Positions 10,244-64,000 of a DNA stretch of 64,000 nt are shown piece by piece. The translations under genes and the position numbers were made by a program. The stretch's first letter is position 1. Each line of letters starts with the position of its first letter. A model generated the notes under the pieces. It did not search any database. It saw only the letters and a program-made list of their open reading frames with translations, and was not told the DNA's origin. This DNA comes from an uncultured Kordiimonas sp. (lineage in GTDB: Bacteria > Pseudomonadota > Alphaproteobacteria > Sphingomonadales > Kordiimonadaceae), in assembly GCA_947492375.1 (NCBI GenBank), contig CANLMI010000003.1:434001-498000 (forward strand), read 5' to 3'.

Positions 10244-10271
10244 CAGGTGCGCCTATACCTGTTATTGCTTT

Positions 10272-11237: not shown

Positions 11238-11312
11238 TTCTTTAGCACAAGGTTCGGCGGGGTAGGGCCTGGGGGACAGTTAGGCCCTTCGGGGAACACA
11301 GTTTTTAATTCT

Positions 11313-37137: not shown

Positions 37138-37448
37138 GACTATCAAGAATAGCTGATACCGAGAGTTTGCTCTCAGGCAAAAGAAGGCCCTGATTATTTT
37201 GATTTTTTCAGTTTAATCAGGGCTTTTTTATATTTTGTTACTATCTTATAATCCTGGCGTGATCACGCCTAAGCGAATAAACACAAAAATATCATAAAAT
37301 TGCGATTAATTTCCTATTAATCATTGTTTATAGATGTTATCAGCGTCTAGAGATCGAATACATAAGTTTTGTATAATGACATTTAATGGAAATCCTTGGA
37401 ACCGATTATCGTTTTTTAGGGGTAGTCTAAAGTTGTGGAAATGATGAT
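37138..37448. other. Gap with terminator and TATAAT box
   Basis: Besides the terminator at 37187, the gap holds TTTTGTATAATGACA near 37370-37382, a good -10 candidate for the next PEP-CTERM gene. I see no palindrome of the A-D type here. Confidence 0.45.
37187..37228 (+). terminator. Terminator of first PEP-CTERM cassette
   Basis: GCCCTGATTA...TAATCAGGGC with a T-rich loop is followed by six T residues. A small GAGAG/CTCTC hairpin precedes it at about 37160. The same layout follows the other two genes of this group. Confidence 0.85.
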
Positions 37449-38159: not shown

Positions 38160-38255
38160 CAAATATAATAACTTTTTAATTATGCAGTCAAAATAGCATA
38201 GCATAATTATGTAATAAACTGAGGCTTTGCTCACAAGCTTTCCTCAGGGAAAAAT

Positions 38256-38298
38256 GGCCCTGATTATTCTGGTTTATCCAGTGTGATCGGGGCTTTTT
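38256..38298 (+). terminator. Terminator of second PEP-CTERM cassette
   Basis: GGCCCTGATTA pairs imperfectly with TGATCGGGGC and five T residues follow. Confidence 0.75.
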
Positions 38299-38438
38299 AT
38301 TTATGCTCGCTTTTTATTTATACTCAATGTCACTGATATCATTCTCGTGCACGAGAAACTATTTTGACTAATGTTCGCATTGATTTCTAATCAAGCTAAG
38401 AAGGACTGATTAGATATTTAGAGTTACGGTATGTATAT

Positions 38439-38454
38439 TTCATGGTCCCATGAA
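38439..38454. promoter_or_regulatory. PEP-CTERM cassette palindrome, copy B
   Basis: TTCATGGTCCCATGAA is a perfect 7-2-7 inverted repeat, followed by the GAATGATAG segment shared with copy A. Confidence 0.6.
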
Positions 38455-38579
38455 GAATGATAGTTTACAACCTTAATGATGCATGTTAACTACTTGTTAA
38501 CTTTTGAATCAGGCATTAGATTTAAATTGGTGTTAGGCAACGCCGACTGTATTTTGTAATTCGCCACTTGGGGGAAATC

Positions 38580-39212
38580 ATGAAGAAAATTATTGGTGTT
38601 TTTGTTTTGATGTGTGTATCGGCTGTGAATGTAAGTGCGGCCACAACTTTCCATAATGAGGCTGTGGATGGTGATGTTGATGATGTGTTATTAACACTTG
38701 GTGTTGGCCTAAACCGTATTATTGGAAATACTGGTATTACTCGCCCTGCCGGTGTTATGGCACAAGAGGATGTAATAATTGATTTTGACTTTTTCGATTT
38801 TGATTTGTCATCAGATCTGTTTATTAGCCGCATAAGTGGCGTTGTTTCCGATCCTAACCCAGAAGTTCAGGCCGGAGATTTTCAAGTATTTTTTAATAAT
38901 GCTCCTATGCTCGAAATCACTTTAAATCCCAGTCCTTTCATTGTGCCGGATCCGCTCGATATTATATCTCAATTTGATGTTTCATTTACACCGTCACAGA
39001 ACATTGCTTCCGCGCAGTTTAATGGTCTTTTTAATTTTGACCCGGCTGATTCAGTTTTTGTGGGAACTAATACAAACTATGAGCTGACGATTACTGTTGA
39101 AAGCATTACTTCCGCCGTTCCTGAGCCCGCAACATGGTTGATGATGGTGTTTGGTTTTGCTGGCGTTGGCATGGCATTGAAACGTCGTCGCAGAATGATT
39201 GCAGATATTTAA
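38580..39212 (+). CDS. PEP-CTERM protein, third in the portal/protease insertion
   Basis: The 210-residue precursor has a signal peptide (about 1-22, ending VSAA), a beta-rich acidic body with DFDFFDFDLSSDLFISRI, and the tail VPEPATWLMMVFGFAGVGMALKRRRR. This tail and its nucleotide leader nearly match the gene at 36439. GGGGGAAATC precedes the ATG; an in-frame TTG 12 bases upstream is part of the ribosome region. Confidence 0.82.
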   Translation: MKKIIGVFVLMCVSAVNVSAATTFHNEAVDGDVDDVLLTLGVGLNRIIGNTGITRPAGVMAQEDVIIDFDFFDFDLSSDLFISRISGVVSDPNPEVQAGDFQVFFNNAPMLEITLNPSPFIVPDPLDIISQFDVSFTPSQNIASAQFNGLFNFDPADSVFVGTNTNYELTITVESITSAVPEPATWLMMVFGFAGVGMALKRRRRMIADI

Positions 39213-39297: not shown

Positions 39298-39340
39298 GCT
39301 CATTTTTCTCATTCAAATTTAACTAAAAGGAATGCTTTTC

Positions 39341-40609
39341 ATGGCTGAAACGCAAACATTTGCCTATGGCACAGCGTCATCTTTATCACGCAGTCTATCT
39401 TGTAAAAATGATACTCTTCACCATGATCGGCTTGATCTGAAATTGGAAGTTAAGGCCGGCAGTGAGCCTGGTACATTTGAGGGATACGGTGCTATTTTTG
39501 GTAACCGTGATAACGATAATGATATTGTTGTTAAAGGCGCGTTTGTTGACAGTTTGAAGGAACGCACACCCGCGATGCTTTGGCAGCATAATACCAAGGA
39601 ACCCATCGGTCGTTTTCTTGACGTGCGAGAGGATGATAAAGGCCTTTATGTGCGCGGTAAGCTTTCGATGAAAGGCAAAGGTGCTGAAGCCTATGAATTG
39701 CTGTCGATGGGGGCAATGGACGGCTTGTCCATAGGGTTTGTCACCAAGGAAGCAACCCGTGACGCCGCGAGTGGTACCCGCACTATCCAAAAGGCAGATT
39801 TGATGGAAATTTCGCTGGTTACCTTTCCGGCGAACGAGATGGCACGTATCGATAGCGTGAAGGCTGCCAGCGCAATCTCTGATGAGCGGTCATTCGAGCG
39901 CTTTTTGCGGGCCTCGGGTTTTTCCAGAAGCCGTGCCAAAACCATCACGGCCAAAGGTTTTAAAACAGACACATATTCGCATAAGAAAGGACATATGATG
40001 CCATATGATGAGCAGGAAATAGCGGCAATTGTTGACGGTTTAGAGTATAAAAAGGATCGCCTTTTATATCGCAGTGACAATTTTATCGAGAGAAAAAAGT
40101 CTTTTGCCAAAGGCCCACACTTAGCTTTGATTGAAGAAACAATTGGAAATTTTTTATCTGCATATCGGGCTATTCGACCTACACCTCAGCCCATGAGATT
40201 GTTACGCGGTGAAACAAAAAAGTTTCATCTTGGCATTAACCTGAGACAAAGTAGTCGTGGGGTTAAAATCAAATACGATGGCACAGGTATTCATTTGTTT
40301 GAGTGCAAAATCAACTATTGGAAGTGGGCCTCGACTGGCCCTGAGCGAGAAGAAATATACTTGTTCCAGCGCAAGGGTTCAGCGCGCCTGACAAACAGAT
40401 TTTCTCAAGGTAGTATTACTGGTGATCAGCTCAGAAAGTGGTTGGGTCAGATAGAAAGTTTACGTCAATTAGAAAGCGCTGTATCGCGTATCGAAAACGC
40501 TCTGAAGACCTTGGCACCACATGGTACGCTAACATATAAAGGGCCACATTTGAAAGATCCTGTCCCGGACATGCGGCATCGAAATCAAATTTTTAATATT
40601 ACAGGGTAA
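39341..40609 (+). CDS. HK97 prohead protease fused to an unknown C-terminal domain
   Basis: The first 190 residues of this 422-residue product are a peptidase S78 prohead protease: GTFEGYGAIFG, catalytic H83 in MLWQHN, and S130 in GLSIGF. A region with FLRASGFSRSRAKTITAKGF ends the normal protease. About 200 extra residues follow and I do not recognise them. An internal ATG pair at 39995/39998 has AAAGGA directly in front, so a separate 203-residue product (MPYDEQEIAAIVDGL...) may also be made. The ATG at 39341 has AAAAGGA at a better distance than the ATG nine bases upstream. Confidence 0.85.
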   Translation: MAETQTFAYGTASSLSRSLSCKNDTLHHDRLDLKLEVKAGSEPGTFEGYGAIFGNRDNDNDIVVKGAFVDSLKERTPAMLWQHNTKEPIGRFLDVREDDKGLYVRGKLSMKGKGAEAYELLSMGAMDGLSIGFVTKEATRDAASGTRTIQKADLMEISLVTFPANEMARIDSVKAASAISDERSFERFLRASGFSRSRAKTITAKGFKTDTYSHKKGHMMPYDEQEIAAIVDGLEYKKDRLLYRSDNFIERKKSFAKGPHLALIEETIGNFLSAYRAIRPTPQPMRLLRGETKKFHLGINLRQSSRGVKIKYDGTGIHLFECKINYWKWASTGPEREEIYLFQRKGSARLTNRFSQGSITGDQLRKWLGQIESLRQLESAVSRIENALKTLAPHGTLTYKGPHLKDPVPDMRHRNQIFNITG

Positions 40610-42656: not shown

Positions 42657-43436
42657 CTATGGCATTACACCGTTCTTTATTTTTGCAAGTGAGGTACGTG
42701 CCTCATCTTCTGTAAAGCCAACCTGCTTTTCAATAAATGTTTTAAACCATTCACCTGTCGCTGTGTTGTCAGATATATGTTCGCAAATTTGCGGCGTGAA
42801 ATTATAGTCACTCCAAGACAGATATTGAAGAAGCTCATATTGAAAGCCTGGCCCATTATATGTGATTTTAAAAGGTTTAACAGGATCAAAGCCTGTTTCA
42901 GTAATACGGCGGATTAAAATATTATCTGGAATACCAAATGCAAGCTCAGTGCCTTCATAATCTTTAAGTGATAAAACAGGCGAAATATTGGATAGCTGAT
43001 ATGTTTTTAAATGATCTGCAACACGGTTTAGAGTGTTTTTTGAGAACGTAATTTCCATACCTATCCTGTCGTGATGAGGCCTCTCCCCTTCAGTATGCCA
43101 AACGCAGATGTTTTCGATATCATTCTTTGAGAGGGTTAGGCCAGATATTTGGGGAACCAGGTAAAATAATGGGCCTGTTGGAAGGGTTATTTCTACATCC
43201 TGATTGCTGGCGTTATTATGTTTTGGTTTGAAATATAGATCGCTGTCATAAGCCCCAAGGCCTGGAAAACTGTTTGATAGGGATGTCGGTTCAGCAGGTG
43301 GTGTCCAGTCTCTATATTGATAATGATCAATTAAGCCTGCATTATCAGGGCTGGACACAAAGCCGTAAAAAATCAAGATGACAAGTACCGCCGCGGTAGT
43401 GAAACCGGATATTAAGCCCTTCATGAATGTTGACAC
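42657..43436 (-). CDS. Membrane-anchored paralogue 3 of the protease/capsid insertion
   Basis: The 259-residue product is placed at a GTG start, because MSTFMKGLISG then aligns with MSSFIKGIVTG of paralogue 1 and AAGGGGGTCAAA lies just in front. An ATG 36 bases upstream gives an unsupported extension. The anchor (about 5-25) is followed by ENICVWHTEG, GMEITFSKNTLNRVADHLKTY...LSLKDYEGTELAF, KITYNGPGFQYELLQYL and PQICEHI, in the same order as the other two. Function unknown. Confidence 0.6.
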   Translation of the reverse strand: MSTFMKGLISGFTTAAVLVILIFYGFVSSPDNAGLIDHYQYRDWTPPAEPTSLSNSFPGLGAYDSDLYFKPKHNNASNQDVEITLPTGPLFYLVPQISGLTLSKNDIENICVWHTEGERPHHDRIGMEITFSKNTLNRVADHLKTYQLSNISPVLSLKDYEGTELAFGIPDNILIRRITETGFDPVKPFKITYNGPGFQYELLQYLSWSDYNFTPQICEHISDNTATGEWFKTFIEKQVGFTEDEARTSLAKIKNGVMP

Positions 43437-43593
43437 TTTGACCCCCTTTAAGCTCTTCTTACTTATTCTCATTGAAAATCAGCTTATCTCAGGAAATCGA
43501 ACAAAAAAAGAACAAAATGCAATTTCTTTCTTGATATATGCACCCAAAATGTTATTATTCACCTTATTCGGGAATTTCATGGAGGTGTTGGGC

Positions 43594-43947
43594 ATGAAAC
43601 CTTATTCAGCAAAATATAGCTTTACCAAGAATATTGGGGTGACTTTAAAACATCTTGTTATTTGTTTTGGGTTGACCGCCTTTTGGACGAGCAGTGTTTC
43701 CGCTGAGTATGTGAAGGTTGTGCACCCTGACGGTGTTGAGGATATTCGTGGTATCGATTTAAAAACGATGAAAGTTTGTGAGTTGAAGCAACGTATTGCA
43801 AGGCTTTTGAACTTGAAAATTCGAGAGTTTGACCTAATTGGCGGCGGTAATAAATTGAAGCCGGGTAAAACTTTAAAAGATGATCGTGTATTCAATGGTA
43901 AACGACTAACGGTAAAGCCTGCAAAATCTTCTTATCAATGCAGATAA
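43594..43947 (+). CDS. Secreted ubiquitin-like beta-grasp protein
   Basis: The 117-residue precursor has a signal peptide cleaved after VSA (residue 37). The mature part is one ubiquitin-like domain: EYVKVVHPDGVEDIRGIDL (first hairpin), KVCELKQRIARLLNLK (helix), FDLIGGGNKLKPGKTLKDD, and VFNGKRLTVK. The helix-LI-G-x-x-L-x-x-G-x-T-L-x-D order is that of ubiquitin (I-x-x-K-x-G...LI-F-A-G-K-x-L). The C-terminus KSSYQCR lacks a Gly-Gly. C62 and C116 could form a disulfide. GGAGG precedes the ATG; more upstream codons in frame are non-coding. A strong terminator follows. Confidence 0.7.
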   Translation: MKPYSAKYSFTKNIGVTLKHLVICFGLTAFWTSSVSAEYVKVVHPDGVEDIRGIDLKTMKVCELKQRIARLLNLKIREFDLIGGGNKLKPGKTLKDDRVFNGKRLTVKPAKSSYQCR

Positions 43948-43975: not shown

Positions 43976-44000
43976 AAGCGTCCTTTTGGGCGCTTTTTTT
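43976..44000 (+). terminator. Terminator between ubiquitin-like gene and giant gene
   Basis: AAGCGTCC and GGGCGCTT form an 8-bp stem with one G-U pair around TTTT and run into seven T residues. It also shows that the open frame upstream of 44065 is not translated. Confidence 0.88.
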
Positions 44001-44064: not shown

Positions 44065-47000
44065 ATGCCGCTTCAAGCCATATCCAGCGACGTGACAACT
44101 GCAACAATGGAAACTACTGGAAATACTCCTTCTGTGGCGTTGGCTAACCTTACGATACCCTCTGGTGTTGGGATATCGGTTACAGGTACAGTAACGGGTG
44201 CGGCCCATACGACGGGGGATATTTTTGTCGCTTCCTTTGCGGCGCTGGTGGTTAACGTGGGTGAGGGCGCTGAAATTCGCGGCATGAGCATCGCTCCGTT
44301 GCACAGTACTGGAACAGACGCAGATAACTGGACGTTTTCGGTGGGTGTAGAGGCGGGGCAGCCTGAAATTACGCTTGATGTTACGGGTGATGATAAAGTG
44401 ATTGATTGGTGTGCATCTTATGAAATGGTGCAGGTTACTGATGAATTTGATGTCGTGCCCGATTACACGCCGGATGCAATCGTGTTTGTCAATGCTGTTG
44501 ATGTGCTGAAAGGCGCAGAAGTCACATCAAACACTGTGACAATCACTGGCATCGATGATGGCACAAGCTTCCTTATCGCGGGTGGTGTTGCGGTTATCGA
44601 CGGTGTTGAGGCTGGTGATAACGGCATAATTAATAACGGCCAAACACTTGCGCTTCGTACAACATCGAGTACGAATAACGCTGTAGAAACGATTGTCAAT
44701 TGGGCGGTTGGGACTGAAAGTGGCGTGTGGAGCCTGCGAACAGCATCTGTTGAAATGCCGAGGAACTCTAATGTGCATTACGGTATTGATGTTAATTGGC
44801 AAGGGCCGGCGGAGAGTGAAGTAGATATTTTTGTTCGTGACTTTGCCAGTATACAAGATGCGGTTACAGCTATTAAAAATCTTGCTGATAGTGAAGGGGT
44901 TGTGCGCACATACACACTCGGTCTAGAGCCTGATACAGTTTACCGCGAAGAAGTGAGTTTGAATCGGGTACGGTTTCCAAATGACAGCACGCTTAAAATT
45001 ACAACAGTTAATGGCACACCTGATACGATGGCAACTATTTCCGGTGCCGACATTTTATCAGGCCTTGTGCCCTGTGATGAGAGTGATCAGGCAAGGGTAG
45101 GTGATCGATATACTGATATTCTAAAAGTTAATGTGCCATCACCTGCTTTTAACCCGAATACGATGAACTTGCATGAGGACGGTGAAAGACTGGATTTGGT
45201 GACTGACCGAGCGCAGGAACCGGATTTAACATTATTCACCTTTGATCCTACTGACTGGCATACAGCTACCGCCAAATCTGTTGACGGTGACAACCATATT
45301 AATGGTTATACGTCACCTATTATCGCGGGCTATAGTGCTGAGCAACTGTTAGCAGCGCAGGTTTTGATCTATGGCAGTTCAAATCGCACGACGCTTGCTC
45401 CTATTGATAGTGTTTCCGGCGATACAATTAATTTTACTTCGGACTTTGTTCCCAATGACGACAAAGGAACTAATCCACTTCGTAACAACTTTGCTCTTCT
45501 TAATATCCTTCCTAAACTTTCCGATACGGATTTACCAACTGGTCGTTGGGGGTATTTTGATGAAGGTGATGGCACAGTAACAGTATATATTTTACCCAGA
45601 AATCAAGCCGACTCTGATGAACGTTGTGAATATTCTGTGCGTAACTTGTGTATTGATACCGCTGACTTTAACCGATTGGTTATCGAAGGGATTAATGCTT
45701 ATCAGACAGGGGGAACGATCAATCAGAATGCTATATGCCTTGGCACACGATCAGATAGAATAAAAGCGGTCGCAGATAGACGCGATAATCTGGTTATTAG
45801 AAATGTTCGAGCGGGTAAAAAGGGACTGACAGCAGGTACGAATTATGGTGCGATTTCCGTCTCGTCGGTTAACAAGTTGATTGTTGAAAATTGTCATGTG
45901 TTTGATGTTCCTTACGGTCCGGGTATTGGTAACTTTTCTTCGTCAAATGTTACTATTCGCAATAATTTAATTGAACGTGCAGAAACGACGCCTATTTCCT
46001 GCTTTGGCGGTGGAACTTCAGATGGTGTTGTCAAAGCGGGAGGGTTTTCCGAAAACCTGCAAATTCTGAATAATTACATTTATCAGTGTGGCCGCGAGGT
46101 ACATGCCAATAAGTTTACTGCCTATGAACAATGTAATTATGTAATGTTTGCTGGTAATGTCTATGACGACTGTTATGGATATTTCACATGGCAGGAATGC
46201 TCTAATATCGTTATCGCTTGGAATCTGCTACCTGATGGTAACAGAAACGATAGTACCGTAGCTAACAGGGCTATAGCTGATCAGCAAAACCGAACACCTG
46301 AGCCAGATCCATCAGGTTTTTCTATCCTATATAACAACCAAAGTACGCCCAATCCGTTAACGCTTTCTGATGGTGGTAACTGGCAGTTGTTTGCTGCTAA
46401 TGGTACGCAGACAACAAGTGTCTATAATAATATCATGACAGGCCTTTCGCGATTGGCTGGATATCCAACGTATTTTGGAAGTGCTGCCCATAATATTATC
46501 GCGCTCGATGGTATAAACCTCGATAGTACAGATATCAATATTCCAGATTATAGTACACTTTACCGGGATGCGGCAGGGGAGGATTTCTCGTTTGTTGACG
46601 GTGGTGTTATAAACAATATTGGCTTTGATATGCGTCCGGTTATTCAAAATATTCTGGATGCATGGGCCAATGGACCTATTCAGGGTGATAGTGCTAATAT
46701 TGGCCACCCAATTGACCGTGCTATTCTGGAAACTGATAGAAACGGCAACCTTGTCAATTGGGATCAGCCGTTCATTGGCTCTTACAATCCATCATTAAAC
46801 CCGGATATTATTTCGTTCTCGTTTGGGGCAAACACGCTCGCTATGCACGGAGGAGTTGCCGTGAATGGTAGTGTGATCATGTCGGGTGATGACGGCGGTG
46901 AGTTTACGATCGTTGATGGCTATCTTATGCCGGTTAGTGACGGTTTCACAGCGAGTGACTATACCCTAACACTTGATAGCGGTGATGAGCTTAATATCAG

Positions 47001-50000
47001 GGTTGAGACTGATGCATATTCAGTTAGGGGGCAAGCGGAATTTGATGCACTTATTGCGGGGGCTGTGGATCTCTCTGGGAATAAAATCATTTTACGGGAT
47101 GCTGTTGATACACTTAGCATTCAAAACAAAGCATATTCCGCGCCGTTAAGTATTATGCAGGAAACTGGTACTGTGCGCTCGGTATTTGTTAATTCAGTGA
47201 ATAACCTCACATTTGACGGCATTAATTTTGCGGATAGTAATTTAAACAATCGTGATGCAGCCATTTCTTCAAACTCGCCCATCATTATCCGTGCCAGTGA
47301 TCAGGTCACATTTCACTCATGCACAGTAAATAACGAAAGTGCCAATGGGCCTTCCACATATTTAACAGGTGTTCGATGCGAGAATAGCACGGCCCTGGAA
47401 TTCAATAATTGTGAAGTTAGTCATGTATATAACGCCTTTGTGGTTGAAAACGGTGATGTCACCTTTAATCGCTGTGTTGTACATGATATTTTCCGCGATG
47501 GTTTTTCCACCCTCCGTTCGGATGTGGTGCTGGAGGACAGTGAAGCATATAATTTTTACGCAACGCCCGGCCGCAGGTTTGTGGGGACTATTACAGGTAC
47601 ATTGGATACTAACGAATATCTATCAACTGGGCCTTTACCTGAAAACCCAGCAAGAGTTCGGGGCGGTGAGGTTCGTGCGGTTGGTGCGGACACTGTTGAT
47701 ATCTTTTATAATGGTCATGAACGCCCCAATGTTGGTGATGTTCTTTCAGGTCAGAATGGTACCTTTACAGTGACAGGTTTTGGTACAGATATTGGTATCC
47801 ACGGTGATTGTTTTCAGCCTTTGAATAACGGCGCAGTACGTGACCATACTATTGTTTGCCGACGGAACTTTTTCCATATCGGTACCCCTTTAACTTCAGG
47901 TGCCCTTGGAACTTATCAAGCACCGCAAGGTATTTTTATACAGGCAAATGATGTGTCGTTTGGGTGGTCTAATGTGATTGTTGAGAATAACTGTATCGCA
48001 ACAGAACACAGCAGAGCCATAACCGTTTCAGGTGCGAAAGGTGGAACAGTTCAGCATAATACTATTTTGATGGATGATGTGCAGTTATTCCAATCGCGGC
48101 TTCGTTACGGTAAGAGCCAGGGTTTGATCATTCGCGGTAATGTTTCAGATTTTGGGCCAATTGATGAAGGGGGAAGTAGTAACATTGACCTTGTGGGTAA
48201 TGTAGATGTTCGGCTTTCTGATTATGGATCAAATTATATAAACACGCCTATCGGTGCTCCGTATAGTAAAGATAGTTTTAGGCCAATCGTTGGTAGCACG
48301 ATTGATATTGCAAACGCTGGTGCTGTTGATGCAAATGGTAAATTTAGGCAGGCGGTGCAATCAGGTGCGCCTGCGCTTGTCATAACTGAAACGGGTATTG
48401 CTTTACCAGGTAGTGATATTGCGCTTACGATTGGGGCAGATGGCAGCGCTGATCAGATGCTCGTTGTTGCGATCGAGGTTGAAGATACTGACGGTACATT
48501 GGCCGATGTTTCTTCCGCGATGTGGGGGCCTGTTTCATTAACACCAGTGCAAAATCTGGTAGGTGGTTCTCTTAACCGTGGTGTGTTGTTTTACGCACCG
48601 ATTGGTAGCTCAAAAGGGTCGTATGATGTTTCGATTACTTTGAGTAATCTATCGGATCGCGGCGCCGTTATTGGGGCTGCAATTTTCTCAGGCATTAAAC
48701 AGCAGGCTCCAGTTTTAAATCCGGTTGCTGACCCAGTGACATTTAGTGGTGATGTAACACTACCTAACAGTGCTCTTGCCTTTGCTGTTGCCTTCAACGC
48801 GAGCTTGTCTGAACCGGATATGTCAGCGACTGAGGGTATGACAACATTTAGTATTGAAGACGATACAGCATCCGCTTCGCTTGCCTTCGCACATCGAATT
48901 GAGCCTGCGGGCACCTATTCATTAGGGTTCTCAGCTTCAACAATTGCACGACAAAGGTTTGCAATTGGCTATTTTGAAGCGGTTAAACAACCAATAAGCT
49001 TGGCTTTCGGTGCCAATACACTTGCTGGACAAGGCGGGGTTCCGGCCAATGGTACTATGATTACTGCGGGTGATACATTGGGTGAATTTACAATCACCAA
49101 TGGCTTTCTTGTACCAACGGGTGACGGTTTCACAACGAGTGACTATACCCTAACACTGGATAGCGGTGATGAGCTTAATATCATTATTGAGGCAGACACA
49201 TATTCGATTAGGACACTCGATCAGGCTGCTCAGGCGGCCAAACATGCGATTGCGCCCGGTAGTGACCCGACAAAGGCTGCTACTATCAAGTTTAGAGATG
49301 CAAACTATCAGGGTGATCTTAATATTGCAGCGCTTCCTGGTAGGGGTGATATGACTAAAACAGGCGTAATAACGGACCCTGATCGATTATATTACACTGC
49401 TGACAGTGATGGCTTTCCTTTGTCAGTAGTTGGTCATGAAAACGCTGTTGCATCTTTCGATGGTGGGTATTTGAAACTTGTATCAGAAACATCGACACCG
49501 CAGGAATTGGTCGGGCGCACCCGTCTTTCCGGGATCGGATCACTATGGCTGGAAAATCTGGCATTTCTTAATGAAACACCGCGAGATGGGTTTGCTTATG
49601 AGCCTGAGAAAGATGTGGAAATTGAGAGTATTGTATCTGTTGGTAATCCAACGATTGTTACCGTTGATGAAACAAAAGAGCTAACGCCGAATGCGCTTGT
49701 TAATATTACAGGTGCAAGTGGGTTTGATCAGCTCAATGCTTCTGGAGTGCGGATTATAGAAATCAATGGTAATACTGTTAGTTTCGATTTGGATACAACT
49801 GGACTTACCCCTTCTTATGTTACTGGGTCTGCATCATTTTTAGGAGCTCGTGATAACGCGAACCATGAAACTGATAGTCTCCTAATTGATGTAGGAACTG
49901 TGTCGCCAGAGCCAGCACGTGTTTTAATGCAGAATTGCAAATCTTGCGCAGTTGATATCACGAATAATGCCCGCTATCCCAATGGTTTTAGAATATCGAG

Positions 50001-52227
50001 CGCTGAGACGGTTGCGATTGAAGACTGTGAGCTTGATGGCTTTTACAACGGAATTTCAATTGGGAACTGTCAGGATGTAACGGTTCGGCGTAATTCACTT
50101 CGCCGGCAAATATCGGATGGTATTCGGGTTTTTACCTCTGATGGATTATCAGGCGAAAATGCTAATGTTTCAGTGACTCACAATACGATTTTTGACCCTA
50201 TTTTAGATATATCACATGGTGCACGTCATAATGATGGTATCCAGATGGGAACTCATAATGATACAATTGGGTACGATATATTTGAAGCATATAACTATGT
50301 CTATCTACCCGGTGCCCAGTGCTTATATCATGATGATTTTCCAAGCCCGTTAAAAATGCGTGGTGTTATTACCAACAATCTTTGCTTGGGAAGCGCAGGT
50401 AATGGTATACGTGTTTGGCGTAATGATGATCATTTTGTTCAGGTTGTAAATAACACGATGATTCGGGCAACCGAATTTACCAGTGATACAAGTGCAAATA
50501 TTGAACCCGCTATTATTAATGCAGAAGCGGGGCGTGCCTTGTTTGATAATAACATTGTCGCGCAGATTAATACTTCTGAAGGTGATTTTGTTACAAATAC
50601 AGTTGATATTGATCATTTTGATGAGAATGGTATGAGCGCTTATTCAACTGTTTTCACCGGACCGTTTGGTTTTGATACCTCACTAGGGCATACCTATACG
50701 ATTGATACAACAAATGCAGATACGGTTCGCCAATCATTGGATGATGTTTTCCAAGGCAATAGTGGTTTTGAAACAGCTGGGCATAATGCGCCGCCAATAG
50801 TGTTGGCAAGACCCGCTCCTGTTCCGGCGACACCGGAAGACGCCATCTTTAACCTGGCAGATATCAGCGATATAAACCGAATAATCAATACGAATTCCGA
50901 GAATTATTTCCCTGACAATATGACGAAGTTTACTGTTGTTATGCGGGTTGCTGCTGACTTCACTTTGGGGCAGGAATTTTTGAGTGCAGGTTCTTCGACT
51001 AGAATAGTTGGTTTTGTTGCTGCGACAGGTTTACGTTTTACAATCGGCGGCGAGCGTTTTCAAACAACAGCGTTTCCAGATGATGGTCAACTAACTACTA
51101 TTATATTATCTGCAGACCTGACCCGCCCTGTTGAAACAGACAGATATCAGGTATTTTTTGATTATAATAATGGTGAGCGGCGACTTGTTAATGTAACGGA
51201 CACTGGCCAAACGATAGACCTAACTGAATTTCATGCTTCTAATTGGGCGAACTTAAGTCTTTTCTCTAACACAAGTGGCGCAAACCCTGTACCTGTCCTA
51301 TTGGATTACATCGGGCTCTATAATACCGCATTTGATCTGGGAAATGTTGCGGAACAAATTAAATTCCTTCCTCAAAACATGCCAGTTGACGGCGTGATTG
51401 ATGGCCATATGCCGTTAGTATTTATCACTGGTGACGCCGCTATTGGAAATGACGCAGGTTTAGTGGTAAATTCAGGTAGTTTATCTGACTTTACGCGGAC
51501 AGGTGATATCGCCGCCTATTCAGCACCTGTTTATCAGGAACGCTTGACCCGGTTTGAACAAACAACTGATATCCTGACAAGAGCAGCACCGTTACAATTG
51601 GGAGGCGCTGATGTTACCAATAGCCCTTATGGTTTGCTGTTCTTCTCTCTGGATTTGACTGGCTTGCCATTAGACAGAGGTGAGAGATTCTTTGGAGCGG
51701 GTAATAATTTTTACATACTTATTCATCAAGATGGCAATTTCAGTTTACGGGCTGTCGATGTTGATGGTAATCGAAATATTAATCATAGAACAACAAATGT
51801 ATTTAATTTGACGCGCATAAATGGCTTTATAACAATGGATAACATCAATGGCTCACGTATTTATATTGAAGGCCTTGATGCTATGGGTATGCCAACTATA
51901 GAGAATGTGGTCGAAATAGCTAATGGTTCGCCATTTAGGTTTGATTATAATAGCTTTGCACTCGGCTCTGACGATCTAGCGTTTGATTTTGCACGGTTAG
52001 CATTATGGCGTCTTGATCAAACTCCGCCAGATGTCACAGATGCAGTTGTGCGAGCTCAATTTTATAATGACGTCAGTAAAATTACTGTCGACCCTCAACT
52101 AAGTATTAATCTTTTGGGTGCGCCAATACTTGATATATACGGGTCAGCAGGTGAAGTTAACCAAGGCCTTGACCAGAGTGGTAATGGTAATAACTTTACC
52201 ATTGATGGAGCCGTTACCGACGTATAA
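44065..52227 (+). CDS. Giant (2,720-residue) beta-helix and LamG-like protein within the phage head genes
   Basis: The start follows GGGAG and there is no signal peptide. The N-terminal 130 residues (NTPSVALANLTIPSGVGISVTGTV...TGTDADNWTFSV) resemble a phage virion-protein module. Three right-handed beta-helix regions follow (about 255-900, 985-1430, 1715-2245), rich in NNxI/VxNC-type turns such as NKLIVENCHVFDV, ALEFNNCEVSHV and VAIEDCELDGFYNGI. A repeated linker module (FGANTLA..GGV..NG...DYTLTLDSGDELNI) opens the second and third helix regions. Two LamG-like beta-sandwiches end the protein (about 2280-2450, 2500-2660). Lack of export signal and its place suggest a tail spike, fibre or capsid decoration that binds or cuts glycans; a non-classically exported adhesin is the alternative. 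Confidence 0.8.
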   Translation: MPLQAISSDVTTATMETTGNTPSVALANLTIPSGVGISVTGTVTGAAHTTGDIFVASFAALVVNVGEGAEIRGMSIAPLHSTGTDADNWTFSVGVEAGQPEITLDVTGDDKVIDWCASYEMVQVTDEFDVVPDYTPDAIVFVNAVDVLKGAEVTSNTVTITGIDDGTSFLIAGGVAVIDGVEAGDNGIINNGQTLALRTTSSTNNAVETIVNWAVGTESGVWSLRTASVEMPRNSNVHYGIDVNWQGPAESEVDIFVRDFASIQDAVTAIKNLADSEGVVRTYTLGLEPDTVYREEVSLNRVRFPNDSTLKITTVNGTPDTMATISGADILSGLVPCDESDQARVGDRYTDILKVNVPSPAFNPNTMNLHEDGERLDLVTDRAQEPDLTLFTFDPTDWHTATAKSVDGDNHINGYTSPIIAGYSAEQLLAAQVLIYGSSNRTTLAPIDSVSGDTINFTSDFVPNDDKGTNPLRNNFALLNILPKLSDTDLPTGRWGYFDEGDGTVTVYILPRNQADSDERCEYSVRNLCIDTADFNRLVIEGINAYQTGGTINQNAICLGTRSDRIKAVADRRDNLVIRNVRAGKKGLTAGTNYGAISVSSVNKLIVENCHVFDVPYGPGIGNFSSSNVTIRNNLIERAETTPISCFGGGTSDGVVKAGGFSENLQILNNYIYQCGREVHANKFTAYEQCNYVMFAGNVYDDCYGYFTWQECSNIVIAWNLLPDGNRNDSTVANRAIADQQNRTPEPDPSGFSILYNNQSTPNPLTLSDGGNWQLFAANGTQTTSVYNNIMTGLSRLAGYPTYFGSAAHNIIALDGINLDSTDINIPDYSTLYRDAAGEDFSFVDGGVINNIGFDMRPVIQNILDAWANGPIQGDSANIGHPIDRAILETDRNGNLVNWDQPFIGSYNPSLNPDIISFSFGANTLAMHGGVAVNGSVIMSGDDGGEFTIVDGYLMPVSDGFTASDYTLTLDSGDELNIRVETDAYSVRGQAEFDALIAGAVDLSGNKIILRDAVDTLSIQNKAYSAPLSIMQETGTVRSVFVNSVNNLTFDGINFADSNLNNRDAAISSNSPIIIRASDQVTFHSCTVNNESANGPSTYLTGVRCENSTALEFNNCEVSHVYNAFVVENGDVTFNRCVVHDIFRDGFSTLRSDVVLEDSEAYNFYATPGRRFVGTITGTLDTNEYLSTGPLPENPARVRGGEVRAVGADTVDIFYNGHERPNVGDVLSGQNGTFTVTGFGTDIGIHGDCFQPLNNGAVRDHTIVCRRNFFHIGTPLTSGALGTYQAPQGIFIQANDVSFGWSNVIVENNCIATEHSRAITVSGAKGGTVQHNTILMDDVQLFQSRLRYGKSQGLIIRGNVSDFGPIDEGGSSNIDLVGNVDVRLSDYGSNYINTPIGAPYSKDSFRPIVGSTIDIANAGAVDANGKFRQAVQSGAPALVITETGIALPGSDIALTIGADGSADQMLVVAIEVEDTDGTLADVSSAMWGPVSLTPVQNLVGGSLNRGVLFYAPIGSSKGSYDVSITLSNLSDRGAVIGAAIFSGIKQQAPVLNPVADPVTFSGDVTLPNSALAFAVAFNASLSEPDMSATEGMTTFSIEDDTASASLAFAHRIEPAGTYSLGFSASTIARQRFAIGYFEAVKQPISLAFGANTLAGQGGVPANGTMITAGDTLGEFTITNGFLVPTGDGFTTSDYTLTLDSGDELNIIIEADTYSIRTLDQAAQAAKHAIAPGSDPTKAATIKFRDANYQGDLNIAALPGRGDMTKTGVITDPDRLYYTADSDGFPLSVVGHENAVASFDGGYLKLVSETSTPQELVGRTRLSGIGSLWLENLAFLNETPRDGFAYEPEKDVEIESIVSVGNPTIVTVDETKELTPNALVNITGASGFDQLNASGVRIIEINGNTVSFDLDTTGLTPSYVTGSASFLGARDNANHETDSLLIDVGTVSPEPARVLMQNCKSCAVDITNNARYPNGFRISSAETVAIEDCELDGFYNGISIGNCQDVTVRRNSLRRQISDGIRVFTSDGLSGENANVSVTHNTIFDPILDISHGARHNDGIQMGTHNDTIGYDIFEAYNYVYLPGAQCLYHDDFPSPLKMRGVITNNLCLGSAGNGIRVWRNDDHFVQVVNNTMIRATEFTSDTSANIEPAIINAEAGRALFDNNIVAQINTSEGDFVTNTVDIDHFDENGMSAYSTVFTGPFGFDTSLGHTYTIDTTNADTVRQSLDDVFQGNSGFETAGHNAPPIVLARPAPVPATPEDAIFNLADISDINRIINTNSENYFPDNMTKFTVVMRVAADFTLGQEFLSAGSSTRIVGFVAATGLRFTIGGERFQTTAFPDDGQLTTIILSADLTRPVETDRYQVFFDYNNGERRLVNVTDTGQTIDLTEFHASNWANLSLFSNTSGANPVPVLLDYIGLYNTAFDLGNVAEQIKFLPQNMPVDGVIDGHMPLVFITGDAAIGNDAGLVVNSGSLSDFTRTGDIAAYSAPVYQERLTRFEQTTDILTRAAPLQLGGADVTNSPYGLLFFSLDLTGLPLDRGERFFGAGNNFYILIHQDGNFSLRAVDVDGNRNINHRTTNVFNLTRINGFITMDNINGSRIYIEGLDAMGMPTIENVVEIANGSPFRFDYNSFALGSDDLAFDFARLALWRLDQTPPDVTDAVVRAQFYNDVSKITVDPQLSINLLGAPILDIYGSAGEVNQGLDQSGNGNNFTIDGAVTDV

Positions 52228-52281: not shown

Positions 52282-52427
52282 ACCATAGCTCAATTTATTT
52301 TTGGCCGGTGTGATGCCGGGTTTTTATATGTGCGACTTTCGCGCATTCAGTTGGGCTTTTCTTCATGCGGTATATGCGTGTTCTGTCATGCCGCTTTTCA
52401 AATAATATGAAATACAAGGAAAATTTC

Positions 52428-53561
52428 ATGGAAATCAAAGATTTAAAGCACGCTATCGATGCGTATAGTGATGCTGCTGAAACTGGCCTCTCTGCGCTTG
52501 AGAGCCGTATTGACGATGTGGAAACACAGCTTTTGCGCCCGGACGCTGGCGGTGAGGTCAAACTCACGAGCCTTGGTCTTGAACACAAGGAAGCTTTCAT
52601 TCGCGACTTTATGGTACGCGGTGACGACGATAGTTTGAAGGCATTAGAGAGCAAGGCGCTTTCAACAACTCGCGGCGGTGAAGCTGGTTTTGCTGTACCT
52701 GAAGTGATCGATAGCGAAATTGAGAAACAGGTTCGCCGTCATTCACCGATGCGCTCGATCTGTAAGGTTAAAATGGTCGAAAGCGGTGAATACACACGCC
52801 TTGTTAACACAGCTGATACGCAAACCAACTGGGTCGGTGAAGAAGACGCCCGCGCTGGTACATCTGGGCCAAATCTTGAAGAGATCAAAATTACCCCGGG
52901 TGAGATTTACGCCAATGCAGCGGTTACGCAGCGTGCACTTGATGATATGCAATTTGATGTCGAGGCATGGCTCACCGAAGATGTGGCTGACGAGTTTGCC
53001 CGCATGGAAGGGCAGGCGATTGTTAAGGGTGACGGCGTTAATAAACCAAAAGGTATATTATCTTATGCAACGGATACTTCGGCGGATGATGCGCGTGCAT
53101 TTGGCACAATTCAGCATTTGTCTTCGGGTGTCGCAGCCGGCTTGCCTGCGGTGGACAGTGATGCGGCTGAACTATTAATCGATTTAGTGCATCTGCTGAA
53201 TTCGCGTTACCGTCAGGGCGCTGTATTTTTGATGAATTCAAAAACGCTTTCTGTCGTTCGTAAGCTCAAGGATACGGATGGTAATTTCCTTTTCCGCGCC
53301 GGAATGACACCTGGTGAAAAAGGTATGCTCCTTGGCTATCCTGTTGTGGAAGCAGAAGATATGGATGATATCGGGGCAGGTAATTCGCCGATTGCTTTCG
53401 GTAATTTTGAGCGTGCTTACACAATCGTTGAACGCATGGGCACACGCGTGCTGCGCGATCCATATTCACAGAAACCAAACGTTCAGTTTTATGCAACCAA
53501 GCGCGTTGGCGGTGCTCTTGTAAACGATGCGGCCCTCAAGCTTCTGAAAATCGAAGCCTAA
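52428..53561 (+). CDS. HK97-fold major capsid protein
   Basis: The 377-residue protein has an N-terminal helical delta domain (about 1-60, DAYSDAAETGLSALESRIDDVETQLL) to be removed by the protease, then the HK97 capsid core: GGEAGFAVPEVIDSEIEKQVRRHSPMRSICKV, WVGEEDARAGTSGP, ALDDMQFDVEAWLTEDVADEFARMEG, GYPVVEAEDMDDI and RVLRDPYSQKPNVQFYATKRVGG. The ATG follows AAGGAAAATTTC; an upstream frame extension is not supported. In ordinary clusters the protease gene directly precedes it. Confidence 0.95.
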   Translation: MEIKDLKHAIDAYSDAAETGLSALESRIDDVETQLLRPDAGGEVKLTSLGLEHKEAFIRDFMVRGDDDSLKALESKALSTTRGGEAGFAVPEVIDSEIEKQVRRHSPMRSICKVKMVESGEYTRLVNTADTQTNWVGEEDARAGTSGPNLEEIKITPGEIYANAAVTQRALDDMQFDVEAWLTEDVADEFARMEGQAIVKGDGVNKPKGILSYATDTSADDARAFGTIQHLSSGVAAGLPAVDSDAAELLIDLVHLLNSRYRQGAVFLMNSKTLSVVRKLKDTDGNFLFRAGMTPGEKGMLLGYPVVEAEDMDDIGAGNSPIAFGNFERAYTIVERMGTRVLRDPYSQKPNVQFYATKRVGGALVNDAALKLLKIEA

Positions 53562-53667: not shown

Positions 53668-54429
53668 ATGGCCTTATCTGCGCGGGGGAATTCTGCTGCC
53701 CTATTAGTGATGGGTAATCAGGTCGCTTTAAAAGCACGCCAAAACTATAGCCCCTCTCTCTTACCGCAGTCAGAATTTGCACGGCTTCATTTACTGCGGC
53801 GCGGTATTGTAGTTGGACAAGCTGTAAATACATCCAGTTTTCAAGCACGCGGTACGTTAGCACAAGTGATAGTGGCCGGCGGCGTATCGGCACTTATAGC
53901 CGCGGGCAATAGGGTTTTAGTTGGCAATTCTGCTGTCTTGAGTGTTCAAGGCGGCCTTTCCTCACTTATAACGGCCAATAGCCTTCGGTTAAGCGGTGGT
54001 AAGGGAACCGTTAGTCTAACAGGCGGTATTGGCCTTTTGAATATCTCAGTGAGTGCACGATTTGGCAGTGCCCGAGGGGTACTAAGGCTGAGTGGCGGTA
54101 ATTCTGCTTTAACGTTTGGTCTTGGTCAACGATTGGGCGGTGTTATCGGGCATGTGTCTCTTAATGGTGCCGCGGGTGAGATTTTCACAAATTCAGCTTT
54201 TATTGGGCAAGGGGCGGGACAGGGTGCTGGTCAGGGCACGGGGCACGGCGCTGGGTTGTCTATTGTGGTTGCTGGCAAAGCAGCTACTCTCAGGTTATCT
54301 GGTTTTGGCTTTTTGTCGAAAGATCGACAGGTTATCCCGTTCAAGCGGCCCAACATAATCAAGCCTGAGATAATGCGGACAATCAAGCCGGATCGCAGTC
54401 GCCGAACAAATCGCACGCTGCGTGCGTGA
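53668..54429 (+). CDS. Phage structural protein, repetitive beta type
   Basis: The 253-residue protein is built of Gly/Ser/Leu-rich repeats of the kind GGxSxLxxxGxRxxLxGxxGxxSL, for example GNRVLVGNSAVLSVQGGLSSLITANSLRLSGG and RFGSARGVLRLSGGNSALTF. A Gly-Gln-rich hinge follows and the C-terminus is basic (KPDRSRRTNRTLRA). Head-decoration or fibre-like function is possible from position just after the capsid gene; I do not recognise the family. GAGGGCGCT precedes the ATG. Confidence 0.6.
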   Translation: MALSARGNSAALLVMGNQVALKARQNYSPSLLPQSEFARLHLLRRGIVVGQAVNTSSFQARGTLAQVIVAGGVSALIAAGNRVLVGNSAVLSVQGGLSSLITANSLRLSGGKGTVSLTGGIGLLNISVSARFGSARGVLRLSGGNSALTFGLGQRLGGVIGHVSLNGAAGEIFTNSAFIGQGAGQGAGQGTGHGAGLSIVVAGKAATLRLSGFGFLSKDRQVIPFKRPNIIKPEIMRTIKPDRSRRTNRTLRA

Positions 54430-54482: not shown

Positions 54483-54935
54483 ATGTCTGTTGGCCCCTTT
54501 CAGGTTTTTGACGAAACCATCGAAGCCATGGGTAAAGGCACCCTTGGCGACCTTACAAGCACATCGCTTTCTGCCGTTTTACTAAGCAGTTCCTACACCG
54601 CAAACCTTGCTGCACACGCGACCTTTGCTGATATGTCAGTGCATCAAATCACTGGTGGCACGTATGCGCCCACCGCCGTTACTGGTGCCGTTTATAACGA
54701 TATTACAGGCGGGTTCAATTTTGACACGAATGATATTAGCTGGGGCTTAAGTGCAACCATTCCTGATTGCCGGTATTTGGCAATCGTTGTCGGGAGTAAT
54801 GCTTCCCTTCAATCAACTGACCTTGTCGTTGGTTTTCAGGATTTGATCACTGAGGGGGGCAGCGTTTCTGCAACCAACGGTGAATTCACGGTACAGGCAC
54901 CAGTTGGCGGCTGGTTTGAGGTTACGCGCAGTTAA
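54483..54935 (+). CDS. Phage structural protein, decoration-like
   Basis: The 150-residue protein is of a kind common after capsid genes: FQVFDETIEAMGKGTLGDL at the start, then LSAVLLSSSYTANLAAHATFADMSVHQITGG and a beta-rich end. Similar proteins are annotated only as hypothetical phage proteins, possibly head-surface. CAGGAGACTTCC precedes the ATG. It is followed 56 bases later by another small virion-like gene. Confidence 0.65.
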   Translation: MSVGPFQVFDETIEAMGKGTLGDLTSTSLSAVLLSSSYTANLAAHATFADMSVHQITGGTYAPTAVTGAVYNDITGGFNFDTNDISWGLSATIPDCRYLAIVVGSNASLQSTDLVVGFQDLITEGGSVSATNGEFTVQAPVGGWFEVTRS

Positions 54936-54991: not shown

Positions 54992-55273
54992 ATGACGGTT
55001 TTTGCAAAAGACCCTGCCTCTGATGTTGATTTCAGTGTTGATTGGTCTGATTGGCTGTTGGAAGGTGAAACAATTACTGGCACCACATGGGGGATAGCAC
55101 CCGTGGAAGAAAACGGCCTTACCCTCGGTGTTAATGTTGATAACGGCAGCGCTCGCGGCGTGTTCACAGCGGGCGGTGTGATCGGTCATCGTTACCGGCT
55201 TTCCTGCCTGATTACAACAACTGACAACCGACAAGCAGAACGCAGCCTTAGCGTTCGGGTGATGGAGCTGTAG
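54992..55273 (+). CDS. Phage Ig-like structural protein
   Basis: The 93-residue protein starts AKDPASDVDFSVDWSDWLLEGETITGTTW, a common opening of small Ig-like phage proteins, and closes with GVFTAGGVIGHRYRLSCLITTTDNRQAERSLSVRV. It should be a minor virion component. The connector gene begins one base after its stop. Confidence 0.7.
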   Translation: MTVFAKDPASDVDFSVDWSDWLLEGETITGTTWGIAPVEENGLTLGVNVDNGSARGVFTAGGVIGHRYRLSCLITTTDNRQAERSLSVRVMEL

Positions 55274-56370: not shown

Positions 56371-57042
56371 TTAAAAGTTAGCAGCTTTTTGATCACGTTC
56401 GCGGCGGCGAAGCGCGAGGCCTGTGACGCCGAACCCAACAATCATCATCAGCCATGTTGCGGGTTCTGGGATGGCACTAATATTACCAAATCTAAAACTT
56501 CCATTTGTTGCTTCGGATAGTCCATTTGGTAATGCAATGGAACCTCGGTAACTGAGTTGACCGGAAGTATCGATTGGGTTGTTAAAAGAGGATAAATTAG
56601 TTATTCCTGTACCGGTAAAGGTGTCTGCTGAGAATACAATTTGAAGAAATAGGCTGTTGAATTCATAGAAGTCAAAGCCTACGCCTGGGTTCTCGATTGT
56701 TAGCGTATCAACAAAGTTTAACCCGATAGTAACAACATCAGAGTCATCGAAGTTGGCAATCGATATTCTGTCAGAATTACTGAAAGCACCGCCAACAATG
56801 CCGCCTATCGTGAAACTGCTTTCACGCACAGGGAAACCGCCAAGACTTTGTTCGGAATTAGGATCGAAACTAACTGGAAAACTAAATTGTCCAGTTTCTA
56901 TACCGTCAGCAAATCCGATATCCTGTAAACTTAATGGTCCTCTACCAGGAAAAACAGAAGCTGAGAATTGGAATTCATTGATTGCCGTCACTGGTGCAGT
57001 AATAAAAAAACTTAGTAAGATAAAGTAACCTATATTTTTCAA
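56371..57042 (-). CDS. PEP-CTERM protein, reversed, in closure/terminator insertion
   Basis: The 223-residue precursor starts at TTG with a near-perfect ribosome site (AAAGGAGGTAAAA). A signal peptide (about 1-18) precedes a Phe/Ser/Gly-rich beta body. The tail is IPEPATWLMMIVGFGVTGLALRRRERDQ, identical in part to those of the next two genes. It is bracketed by two copies of a palindromic repeat and has palindrome C upstream. Confidence 0.82.
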   Translation of the reverse strand: MKNIGYFILLSFFITAPVTAINEFQFSASVFPGRGPLSLQDIGFADGIETGQFSFPVSFDPNSEQSLGGFPVRESSFTIGGIVGGAFSNSDRISIANFDDSDVVTIGLNFVDTLTIENPGVGFDFYEFNSLFLQIVFSADTFTGTGITNLSSFNNPIDTSGQLSYRGSIALPNGLSEATNGSFRFGNISAIPEPATWLMMIVGFGVTGLALRRRERDQKAANF

Positions 57043-57073
57043 TTTTACCTCCTTTTAAAATCGTTATCGTAAT

Positions 57074-57089
57074 TTCATGGCCTTATGAA
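57074..57089. promoter_or_regulatory. PEP-CTERM cassette palindrome, copy C
   Basis: TTCATGGCCTTATGAA matches copy B in the left arm and spacing, with two right-arm changes. GTGTATAGTGCATGTTAA follows on the plus strand, as GTGTATAATGCACGTTAA does at copy D. Confidence 0.5.
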
Positions 57090-57142
57090 GTGTATAGTGC
57101 ATGTTAATTATGCTCGATGGTAGGCTTGCGATGCTTATTGTC

Positions 57143-57205
57143 TTGTCATCCATTTTCGATCACATGACGTAATGGATGCCCATTTTTACGGGCATAACAT
57201 TTTTA
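57143..57205. repeat. Palindromic intergenic repeat, copy 2
   Basis: TTGTCATCCATTTTCGATCACATGACGTAATGGATGCCCATTTTTACGGGCATAACATTTTT-like sequence: it shares TGTCATCC, TGACGTAATGGATG and the GCCC..GGGC hairpin with copy 1, but the first hairpin is degraded. Confidence 0.65.
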
Positions 57206-57218
57206 ATCTGGCTCAGGT

Positions 57219-58016
57219 TTATGCAGTAATCTTTTGACCGCGCTGACGTCTGCGAAGCGCGAGGCCAGAGACGCCAAACCCAACAATCATCATTAACCAT
57301 GTCGAAGGTTCTGGGATGGCGGATGTAACACGTACATTGGTTAAGGAAATGCTTCCAAAATCAGTGAAAAGAAACCCGAATTCTTCGAAGGTAGGAGTAT
57401 TGCCAATATCAACGCTAATTATTGGTTCAACGTTAGTGCCAACAAAGCGTTCAAAGTTAATAGCATCTGTATTGGAAACAAATGTATTTGATGAGTTGGG
57501 GGCACCTAAAGATATTACTCCTGACAGGGTGAAATCATCCAAGTTTGGCTCGCCATTTTCGTTAAACGTTCTATCATTCTCAAATCTTAGCGAAGCACTA
57601 TCTGAAAGACTTGATTTTGAATCAAGTATTTGTATTCTGCGTGAAGAAGTAGCTTGATTTGCTGAAGAAAAATTAAGAGTTTGATTACCTAAGTTCAAAG
57701 TAAAATGATCATATTCATATGAAGTAGTTACGCCGCCAGAACTTCTGATTTTAGTGATGCCATTCGAGCTTGACTGTGATGTATCAAATGACAATACTCC
57801 ATTAAAACGAGTTTTGATCACTCTGTCAGAAATACCGCTTGTTACAGGGTCTGTAACGCCCCAACGATTAGCCCAGTCTTGTACATTGTTAAAACTGCTA
57901 AAACCCTGTGCTTCAATAAAAACGGCATCACCTTCAAATACAAAAGTCTGAGATTGCGCATTTGCTGCGTCAAATGATAACACGCTCAAAAGAGCCGCGA
58001 AAAATAGTTTTTTCAT
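57219..58016 (-). CDS. PEP-CTERM protein, reversed, second in operon
   Basis: The 265-residue precursor begins MKKLFFAALLSVLSFDAANA, nearly the same signal peptide as the gene upstream. The body is beta-rich with Ser/Asn/Phe and shares motifs such as FDTSQ, SYEY/N, FTLNLGNQTLNFSS and LGAPN with that neighbour, so both descend from one duplication. The tail is IPEPSTWLMMIVGFGVSGLALRRRQR. GAGGAATTCAA precedes the ATG, and 26 bases separate it from the upstream gene. Confidence 0.85.
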   Translation of the reverse strand: MKKLFFAALLSVLSFDAANAQSQTFVFEGDAVFIEAQGFSSFNNVQDWANRWGVTDPVTSGISDRVIKTRFNGVLSFDTSQSSSNGITKIRSSGGVTTSYEYDHFTLNLGNQTLNFSSANQATSSRRIQILDSKSSLSDSASLRFENDRTFNENGEPNLDDFTLSGVISLGAPNSSNTFVSNTDAINFERFVGTNVEPIISVDIGNTPTFEEFGFLFTDFGSISLTNVRVTSAIPEPSTWLMMIVGFGVSGLALRRRQRGQKITA

Positions 58017-58042
58017 TTGAATTCCTCAATCAATTTTCAGTT

Positions 58043-58810
58043 TTAACTTGAAACTGTTTGGCTGCGTTGGCGGCGGCGAAGCGCGATGCCAGTGACGGCG
58101 AAACCTAATATCATCATTAACCATGTCGCGGGTTCTGGAACTGTGGGCGTTAATAATGATATTTGTGCCTCAGTGATGAAAAAGTTACCTCCCCTAGAGG
58201 TATCATCACGACCACCAAAAAAAACACTGCCGAATGTATTGAAAGATGGATTACGTCCAAAACCAGTCTCAATAACAGGGGTAATATCAGACCCTGTAAA
58301 TCGATTTAAGTTTACAGAATCAGCATTGTCGATAAATGAACTTGAACGGTTAGGGGCACCTAAAACAATAGCGCCAAATATTTCAAATTCTGCGATGGTT
58401 GTCGTAAATCTTATTTCAGCGGTGTCTACAGCATCACTAGTGGAATCAAAAATTGTCAACGACTCAGAAAAGCTTTCAGAGCTTGTAAACTCGAGGGTTC
58501 TTGAACCTAATTCAAAAGTAACGTTTTCATAAGAGTATGAGACTGATGTGCCTATTGTTGGACTCTCGCTGGTATTTATACCGTCTGTAATTGTTTGTGA
58601 TGTATCGAATTTCAGGATGCTACGAAATGAACTGGTAATCTGCATTCGACCATCACGACCTGGCATGAAAGGGTCTGTCAGGCCAAATAAATCAGCAACG
58701 TCTTGCTCATATATTTCTCCACGGCCTTCAATGATGTAAGTTGATGTTTGCGCACTCGCTACGCCAAAAGATAACACGCTCAAAAGCACCGCGAAAAATA
58801 GATTTTTCAT
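58043..58810 (-). CDS. PEP-CTERM protein, reversed, first in operon
   Basis: The 255-residue precursor begins MKNLFFAVLLSVLSFGVASAQ after GGGGAATTCCA; codons further upstream in the frame are not used. Shared body motifs with the next gene are LKFDTSQ, YSYENVTFELGSRTLEFTSS and IVLGAPNRSSSF. The tail is VPEPATWLMMILGFAVTGIALRRRQR. It leads a two-gene operon with palindrome D in the upstream region. Confidence 0.85.
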   Translation of the reverse strand: MKNLFFAVLLSVLSFGVASAQTSTYIIEGRGEIYEQDVADLFGLTDPFMPGRDGRMQITSSFRSILKFDTSQTITDGINTSESPTIGTSVSYSYENVTFELGSRTLEFTSSESFSESLTIFDSTSDAVDTAEIRFTTTIAEFEIFGAIVLGAPNRSSSFIDNADSVNLNRFTGSDITPVIETGFGRNPSFNTFGSVFFGGRDDTSRGGNFFITEAQISLLTPTVPEPATWLMMILGFAVTGIALRRRQRSQTVSS

Positions 58811-58915
58811 TGGAATTCCCCAATCGATTATCAGTTTAAACTTGGCAACTGCCTGATAACCATAATGGTTATTTATTTGCCTGTTTTTAATTCTTAACAA
58901 ATCGTTAACACAGTA

Positions 58916-63841: not shown

Positions 63842-64000
63842 TATAGATAATCCTAAACTACCTTGGTTGCACTTATGTGTTCAACCTATGGATAGAATTG
63901 TATCTTAAATTAGTTGTTTATTGATTAATTTTTAGGGTGAAATTCCGACGTTCATTTGGGAATTTCAGAGATCCTTTTCTTATTTTTAATCTTTCAGGAA

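Follow-up and report, generated by a model that had tools for sequence, protein, structure and literature searches.

The stretch of DNA analyzed here, the window, comprises 64,000 nucleotides of an uncultured Kordiimonas sp. (GenBank assembly GCA_947492375.1, contig CANLMI010000003.1, positions 434,001 to 498,000 of the forward strand). It carries a phage-like structural gene cluster in the order terS (33073), terL, portal, S78 protease, capsid, connector, tail genes, DUF2460-type, DUF2163-type, and DUF6950 (62850); the DUF2460 and DUF2163 labels were given by gene order and not by Pfam. The gene of interest encodes a giant protein of 2,720 amino acids (aa) and is located on the plus strand at 44065–52227, between the S78 protease gene (39332–40609) and the HK97-type major capsid gene (52365–53561, plus strand; PF05065), whose product is homologous to Rcc01687 (E=6.5e-75), the capsid protein of the Rhodobacter capsulatus gene transfer agent (RcGTA). 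This frame, its position between protease and capsid genes, and the lack of a signal peptide had been described in a first-pass annotation made from the sequence alone, and all of them hold. The frame is uninterrupted from ATG 44065 to the stop at 52227; the computed chance of such a stop-free frame at the base composition of the gene is ~10^-72. A GGGAG ribosome-binding site is located 7 bases ahead of the ATG, and the orthologue in the congener (the other species of the genus used for comparison) begins at the same ATG. For these reasons, an alternative upstream TTG start at 43966, which would give a protein of 2,753 aa, is unlikely. The interval between protease and capsid genes also holds three minus-strand genes and one small plus-strand gene. 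Terminator-like hairpins lie before (43976–43995) and after (52305–52319) the giant gene, and another one was recognized by eye near 52262. No signal-peptide-like N-terminus was seen when the giant was read by eye, no RTX repeats were found by the RTX scan, and no autotransporter-type barrel by Pfam, so that the hallmarks of secreted adhesins are lacking; a PEP-CTERM tail was also absent.

The domain layout of the giant was drawn from BLASTP, phmmer, and Pfam. The N-terminal module (residues 1–130; 44065–44454) begins with MPLQAISSD and is probably a particle-attachment domain. It is followed by linker module 1 (residues 131–229; 44455–44751), beta-helix 1 (about residues 230–905; 44752–46779), linker module 2 (about residues 906–990; 46780–47034), beta-helix 2 (about residues 991–1500; 47035–48564), linker module 3 (about residues 1637–1720; 48973–49224), beta-helix 3 (about residues 1721–2270; 49225–50874), and a C-terminal region extending to residue 2720 (50875–52224). 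The linkers are related: in a search of a small set, linker 2 matched linker 3 with E=4e-32 and linker 1 with E=8e-5. The three beta-helix regions proposed in the first-pass annotation stand in part. As right-handed beta-helix, region 2 passes the PF13229 cut-off (30.9 bits vs. 25.9), region 3 stays under it (22.2 bits), and region 1 was identified through homology to other proteins, without Pfam support. Residues E522, E541, H680, and D739 are invariant among four homologues of beta-helix 1. The two LamG-like ends, proposed by eye and including the C-terminal region, were not confirmed: Pfam gave no match, and the equivalent region of the congener reached Laminin_G_2 only at E=0.14. Structure prediction of segments, which the first-pass annotation had suggested, gave unusable AlphaFold2 models, with a mean predicted local distance difference test score of 43 for residues 1–905 and 33 for residues 1521–2720. 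A Foldseek search with the former model returned nothing below E=0.09, and its top names (tailspikes, WceF, glucanases) were rejected as evidence, being non-significant and obtained with a poor model.

The congener orthologue occupies the same place in its cluster and has 1,667 aa. Residues 1–229 of the giant are 74% identical in it and residues 2490–2720 (the last 231) 36% identical, whereas the body of the orthologue is different, includes a PKD domain, and contains a single linker copy, to which linker 3 of the giant is 65% identical. A fixed attachment end joined to a variable body, as in phage beta-helix tailspikes, is thus found in this pair. In a search covering 399 genomes from the order, the N-terminal 130 residues turned up only in the genus of the window; outside the genus, a model of residues 1–229 matched only over residues 129–228. 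The GC content of the N-terminus is 0.51, as in the structural genes; it is lower in the rest of the giant and amounts to 0.41 at the C-terminus. Since the congeners share the ends but not the middle, and since the N-terminus has the GC content of structural genes, we read this sequence pattern as the signature of a receptor-binding protein, a fixed anchor with exchanged heads.

The exchanged parts of the giant have relatives within the same genome. Residues 230–899 are 46% identical to a 924-aa beta-helix protein, probably the spike, of a PM2-like provirus, whose coat protein matched P2_C (PM2 P2) with 37.9 bits against a cut-off of 25. Residues 133–868 are 31% identical to the 1,173-aa fiber of a myophage-type provirus; the gene of this fiber lies between matches to baseplate J (phrog_6) and tail protein I (phrog_48), and in the protein, linker 1 and beta-helix 1 of the giant occur together with a domain of the MLANRVRE type described below. 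One beta-helix domain is therefore present in three elements of one genome: a tailless provirus of the PM2-like type, a provirus with a contractile tail, and the element with the RcGTA-type capsid. The linker alone was found in or adjoining phage tail genes of two other genomes (G034 and G177). It also occurs in a structural protein of a Synechococcus phage and in an exopolysaccharide-locus protein (G045). Beta-helix 1 is 25% identical to a protein in the exopolysaccharide locus of G039. Homologues in non-phage contexts had been named in the first-pass annotation as an argument against a spike; such homologues exist in exopolysaccharide loci of two genera, but they are distant, and the closest ones of beta-helix 1 belong to proviruses. 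Sequence searches of PDB with the giant and with profiles of its N-terminus and beta-helix 1 gave nothing convincing, and neither full-length tblastn of the giant against phages nor scanning of IMG/VR with the giant and with profiles of its N-terminus and of the beta-helix gave a match. The PM2-like provirus (L011, G000:C1:818000-837900) encodes at 3082–12691, besides the 924-aa protein, a P2-type coat protein as well as packaging ATPase-like, Rep_1-like, and cell-wall hydrolase proteins. In exopolysaccharide clusters, each of another genus of the order, the gene sharing beta-helix 1 is located at 7864–10524 of locus L013 and the gene sharing the linker module at 9567–12590 of locus L082.

Fiber genes beside the capsid gene are widespread in the family Kordiimonadaceae, which was delimited by GTDB-named relatives (mostly Kordiimonas, Pseudokordiimonas, and Kordiimonadaceae metagenome-assembled genomes). 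In same-kind clusters of other genera, a large variable fiber or beta-helix gene (318–1,684 aa) comes right after the capsid gene, a pattern that most clusters of the family and several IMG/VR contigs show, and it is usually followed by genes for a phrog_644 protein and a gp77-type adaptor homologue. Most proteins of this slot are long repeat fibers starting with MLANRVRE; a similar domain stands at the start of a tail protein from Vibrio podophage RY-3 and is also present in an unannotated protein of Cronobacter phage Ss1. The slot proteins of G010 and G005 form a separate, mutually related type that is beta-helix-like by eye, and the C-terminal region of the G005 protein is, again by eye, LamG-like. 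Because most family clusters encode a fiber directly beside the capsid gene, a spike gene among head genes is, judged from gene order, the family norm, and only the side of the capsid gene is unusual in the genus of the window. In this genus, the usual slot is occupied by a gene for a 253-aa protein (53668–54429 of the window) that belongs to no known family, has 45% identity in the congener, and is possibly a spike base. It is followed by genes for the family-conserved phrog_644 protein (54483–54935) and for a homologue of the fiber-tail adaptor gp77 of podophage GP4 (54992–55273; PF23148, E=2e-22; PDB 8jou_D, E=1e-4), which are 81–83% identical between congeners; all three genes are on the plus strand. 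The 253-aa protein is variable and Gly/Leu-rich. Ahead of the giant gene, a small protein is encoded at 43378–43947; its C-terminal ~75 residues are ubiquitin-like by eye, with no Pfam match, and genes of this type are conserved directly ahead of the capsid gene in several family clusters.

The cluster is preceded by a repressor-like gene (22378–23202; HTH_3), a DUF1376 gene, and a DUF6362-like gene, and no integrase was seen among the genes scanned. RcGTA has the gene order terL-portal-protease-capsid-adaptor-tail-hub, and the same order is found here with extra genes inserted. A single capsid match per genome was detected in 24 of the 30 family genomes (8 of 9 genera); six genomes had no match at the threshold used, and some matches contain stop codons. 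The DUF6362-like gene upstream of terS is common to four genera, the repressor to three, and flanking host-type genes are shared by two genera and within another genus. Match counts and flanking genes suggest vertical single-copy inheritance in the family. Between congeners, the ratio of nonsynonymous to synonymous substitution rates (dN/dS) of structural genes is 0.04–0.17 where computable, at dS of about 1–2. The single capsid match, shared flanks, and low dN/dS would fit vertical inheritance of a domesticated element. The TIM-barrel domain of the gene transfer agent (GTA) megatron was found in none of 61 genomes (own, family, and order), and DUF6456, which we take to be the domain of the GafA regulator, was over its cut-off in none of the 30 family genomes; the positive controls were found in both searches. 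The DUF2460-type and DUF2163-type proteins had no convincing sequence match to solved structures, and capsids with 45–46% identity also occur in ordinary phages. For these reasons, we describe the element as family-conserved, RcGTA-capsid-type, and GTA-like and do not call it an RcGTA-family GTA. No paper joining "gene transfer agent" with Kordiimonas or Kordiimonadales was found in the open-access literature.

Taken together, the data make it likely that the giant serves as receptor-binding spike, probably one that cleaves glycans, on a particle produced by this vertically inherited element with an RcGTA-type capsid; the host-recognition role proposed in the first-pass annotation is thus favored. 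The conclusion is drawn from the conserved ends and replaced middle, the modules common to two proviruses, the spikes of relatives encoded beside the capsid gene, and the recurrence of the MLANRVRE-type domain in podophage proteins and in the myophage fiber of the same genome, together with the GC content of the N-terminus, the lack of a signal peptide, RTX repeats, and a PEP-CTERM tail, and the precedent of the glycan-active spikes of RcGTA described below. The gene with its location, conservation pattern, mosaic structure, and shared domains is seen directly in the sequences; the incorporation of the giant into particles, its docking site, its enzymatic activity, and its sugar specificity are inferred. 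The N-terminal ~130 residues would dock on the head or neck of the particle, most likely through the gp77-type adaptor and the phrog_644 protein, which are encoded just after the capsid gene. Together with the C-terminal region, the three units of linker and beta-helix would extend to the polysaccharide of the capsule or biofilm of sibling cells, bind it, and probably cut it, as domain sharing and the exopolysaccharide-locus homologues suggest. The giant may thereby help the particle to reach these cells, as the head spikes (PMC7296036) and the tailspike TspA (PMC13420450) of RcGTA do.

Beta-helix tailspike depolymerases of phages normally have one beta-helix per chain and are encoded with tail genes. 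The giant resembles them in its conserved N-terminus, beta-helix body, and module swapping but differs in having three predicted beta-helices per chain and a gene beside the capsid gene. Pantoea WceF (PDB 6tgf) is a tailspike-like beta-helix acting on a biofilm glycan, and the exopolysaccharide-locus homologue of G039 may resemble it; for the giant itself, the fold match to WceF was only a non-significant one obtained with the poor model. RcGTA possesses saccharide-binding head spikes (PMC7296036), consisting of the base Rcc01079 and the fiber Rcc01080. The giant would share with them the role of a capsid-associated capsule-binding fiber, and it differs in its MPLQAISSD start. RcGTA also has a detachable beta-helix tailspike, TspA, which degrades biofilm and aids passage through it (PMC13420450). 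Like the giant as predicted here, TspA is a glycan-active beta-helix spike, and the capsid proteins of the two elements are homologous. By description, TspA differs from the giant in its length of 763 residues, its single beta-helix domain, the location of its gene away from the main cluster, and its binding to the baseplate.

Several observations weigh against a particle spike. The giant gene lies upstream of the capsid gene, whereas the slot gene of other genera lies downstream; the relatives search suggested in the first-pass annotation yielded fiber and beta-helix genes beside the capsid gene, on the other side from the giant. Its N-terminal module matches no known attachment domain, the structure models are too poor to give the beta-helix fold any support, and its presence in particles is deduced from sequence. 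The hairpins on both sides indicate that the giant gene may be its own transcription unit, and host-type genes are inserted at several points of the cluster, which makes location no proof of membership. Finally, beta-helix 1 and the linker have the distant homologues in exopolysaccharide loci mentioned above. The main rival, that the giant is a host cell-surface or matrix protein (an adhesin or an exopolysaccharide-modifying enzyme) carried as cargo like the neighboring PEP-CTERM genes, draws on the host-type genes flanking the capsid region on both sides, on the hairpins, and on the exopolysaccharide-locus homologues. We consider it improbable, given that the giant has no recognized export signal, beta-helix 1 has its closest homologues in spike or fiber genes of proviruses, the congener orthologue has the same place and the same ends, and relatives have spike genes at the neighboring slot.

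Somewhat less probable still is a decaying element in which the giant would be a passenger lacking any particle function. The many insertions, the six family genomes without a capsid match, and the stop codons in some matches speak for decay; the long open frame in both species and the low dN/dS of structural genes speak against it. The first-pass annotation had also considered the tail-tip gene missing from its usual place after the DUF6950 gene and the giant displaced, and a large and modular protein could be a host-specificity protein moved from there. This was an error: a 1,504-codon open reading frame begins at about 63937 in that place on the plus strand, occupies 63937–64000 of the window, and ends 4.4 kb beyond it (C3:497937-502451). 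It matches Phage-tail_3 (30.3 bits vs. cut-off 23) and the tail-tip gene of a relative, and a frame of 1,468 codons in the congener matches it. With the tail tip in place and spikes among head genes common in the family, a displaced tail tip was rejected as extremely improbable.

If the giant is indeed a receptor-binding spike, a family-wide phage-like element keeps a capsid-side receptor-binding slot that swaps modules with unrelated viruses; it would become testable how domesticated particles keep up with shifts in the surface sugars of related cells, and such genes would be a source of large glycan-active enzymes. A further-reaching scheme, which we put forward only tentatively and hold to be rather doubtful as a whole, is a multi-headed spike attached to the head or neck, with three different beta-helix units behind related linkers addressing several host glycans, in an independently domesticated GTA-like element of Kordiimonadaceae whose capsid-linked slot exchanges receptor-binding modules with resident tailed and tailless phages.

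A match to KPP10_Orf10 was under its cut-off and was not used. Six short exported-looking proteins with PEP-CTERM-like tails are encoded between phage structural genes at 36439–39212 and 56371–58900; one of these tails was confirmed by Pfam, and the congener has similar insertions. The S78 protease is extended at its C-terminus by ~230 residues, and parts of this extension are found in relatives (L030-L033) as small genes of their own.
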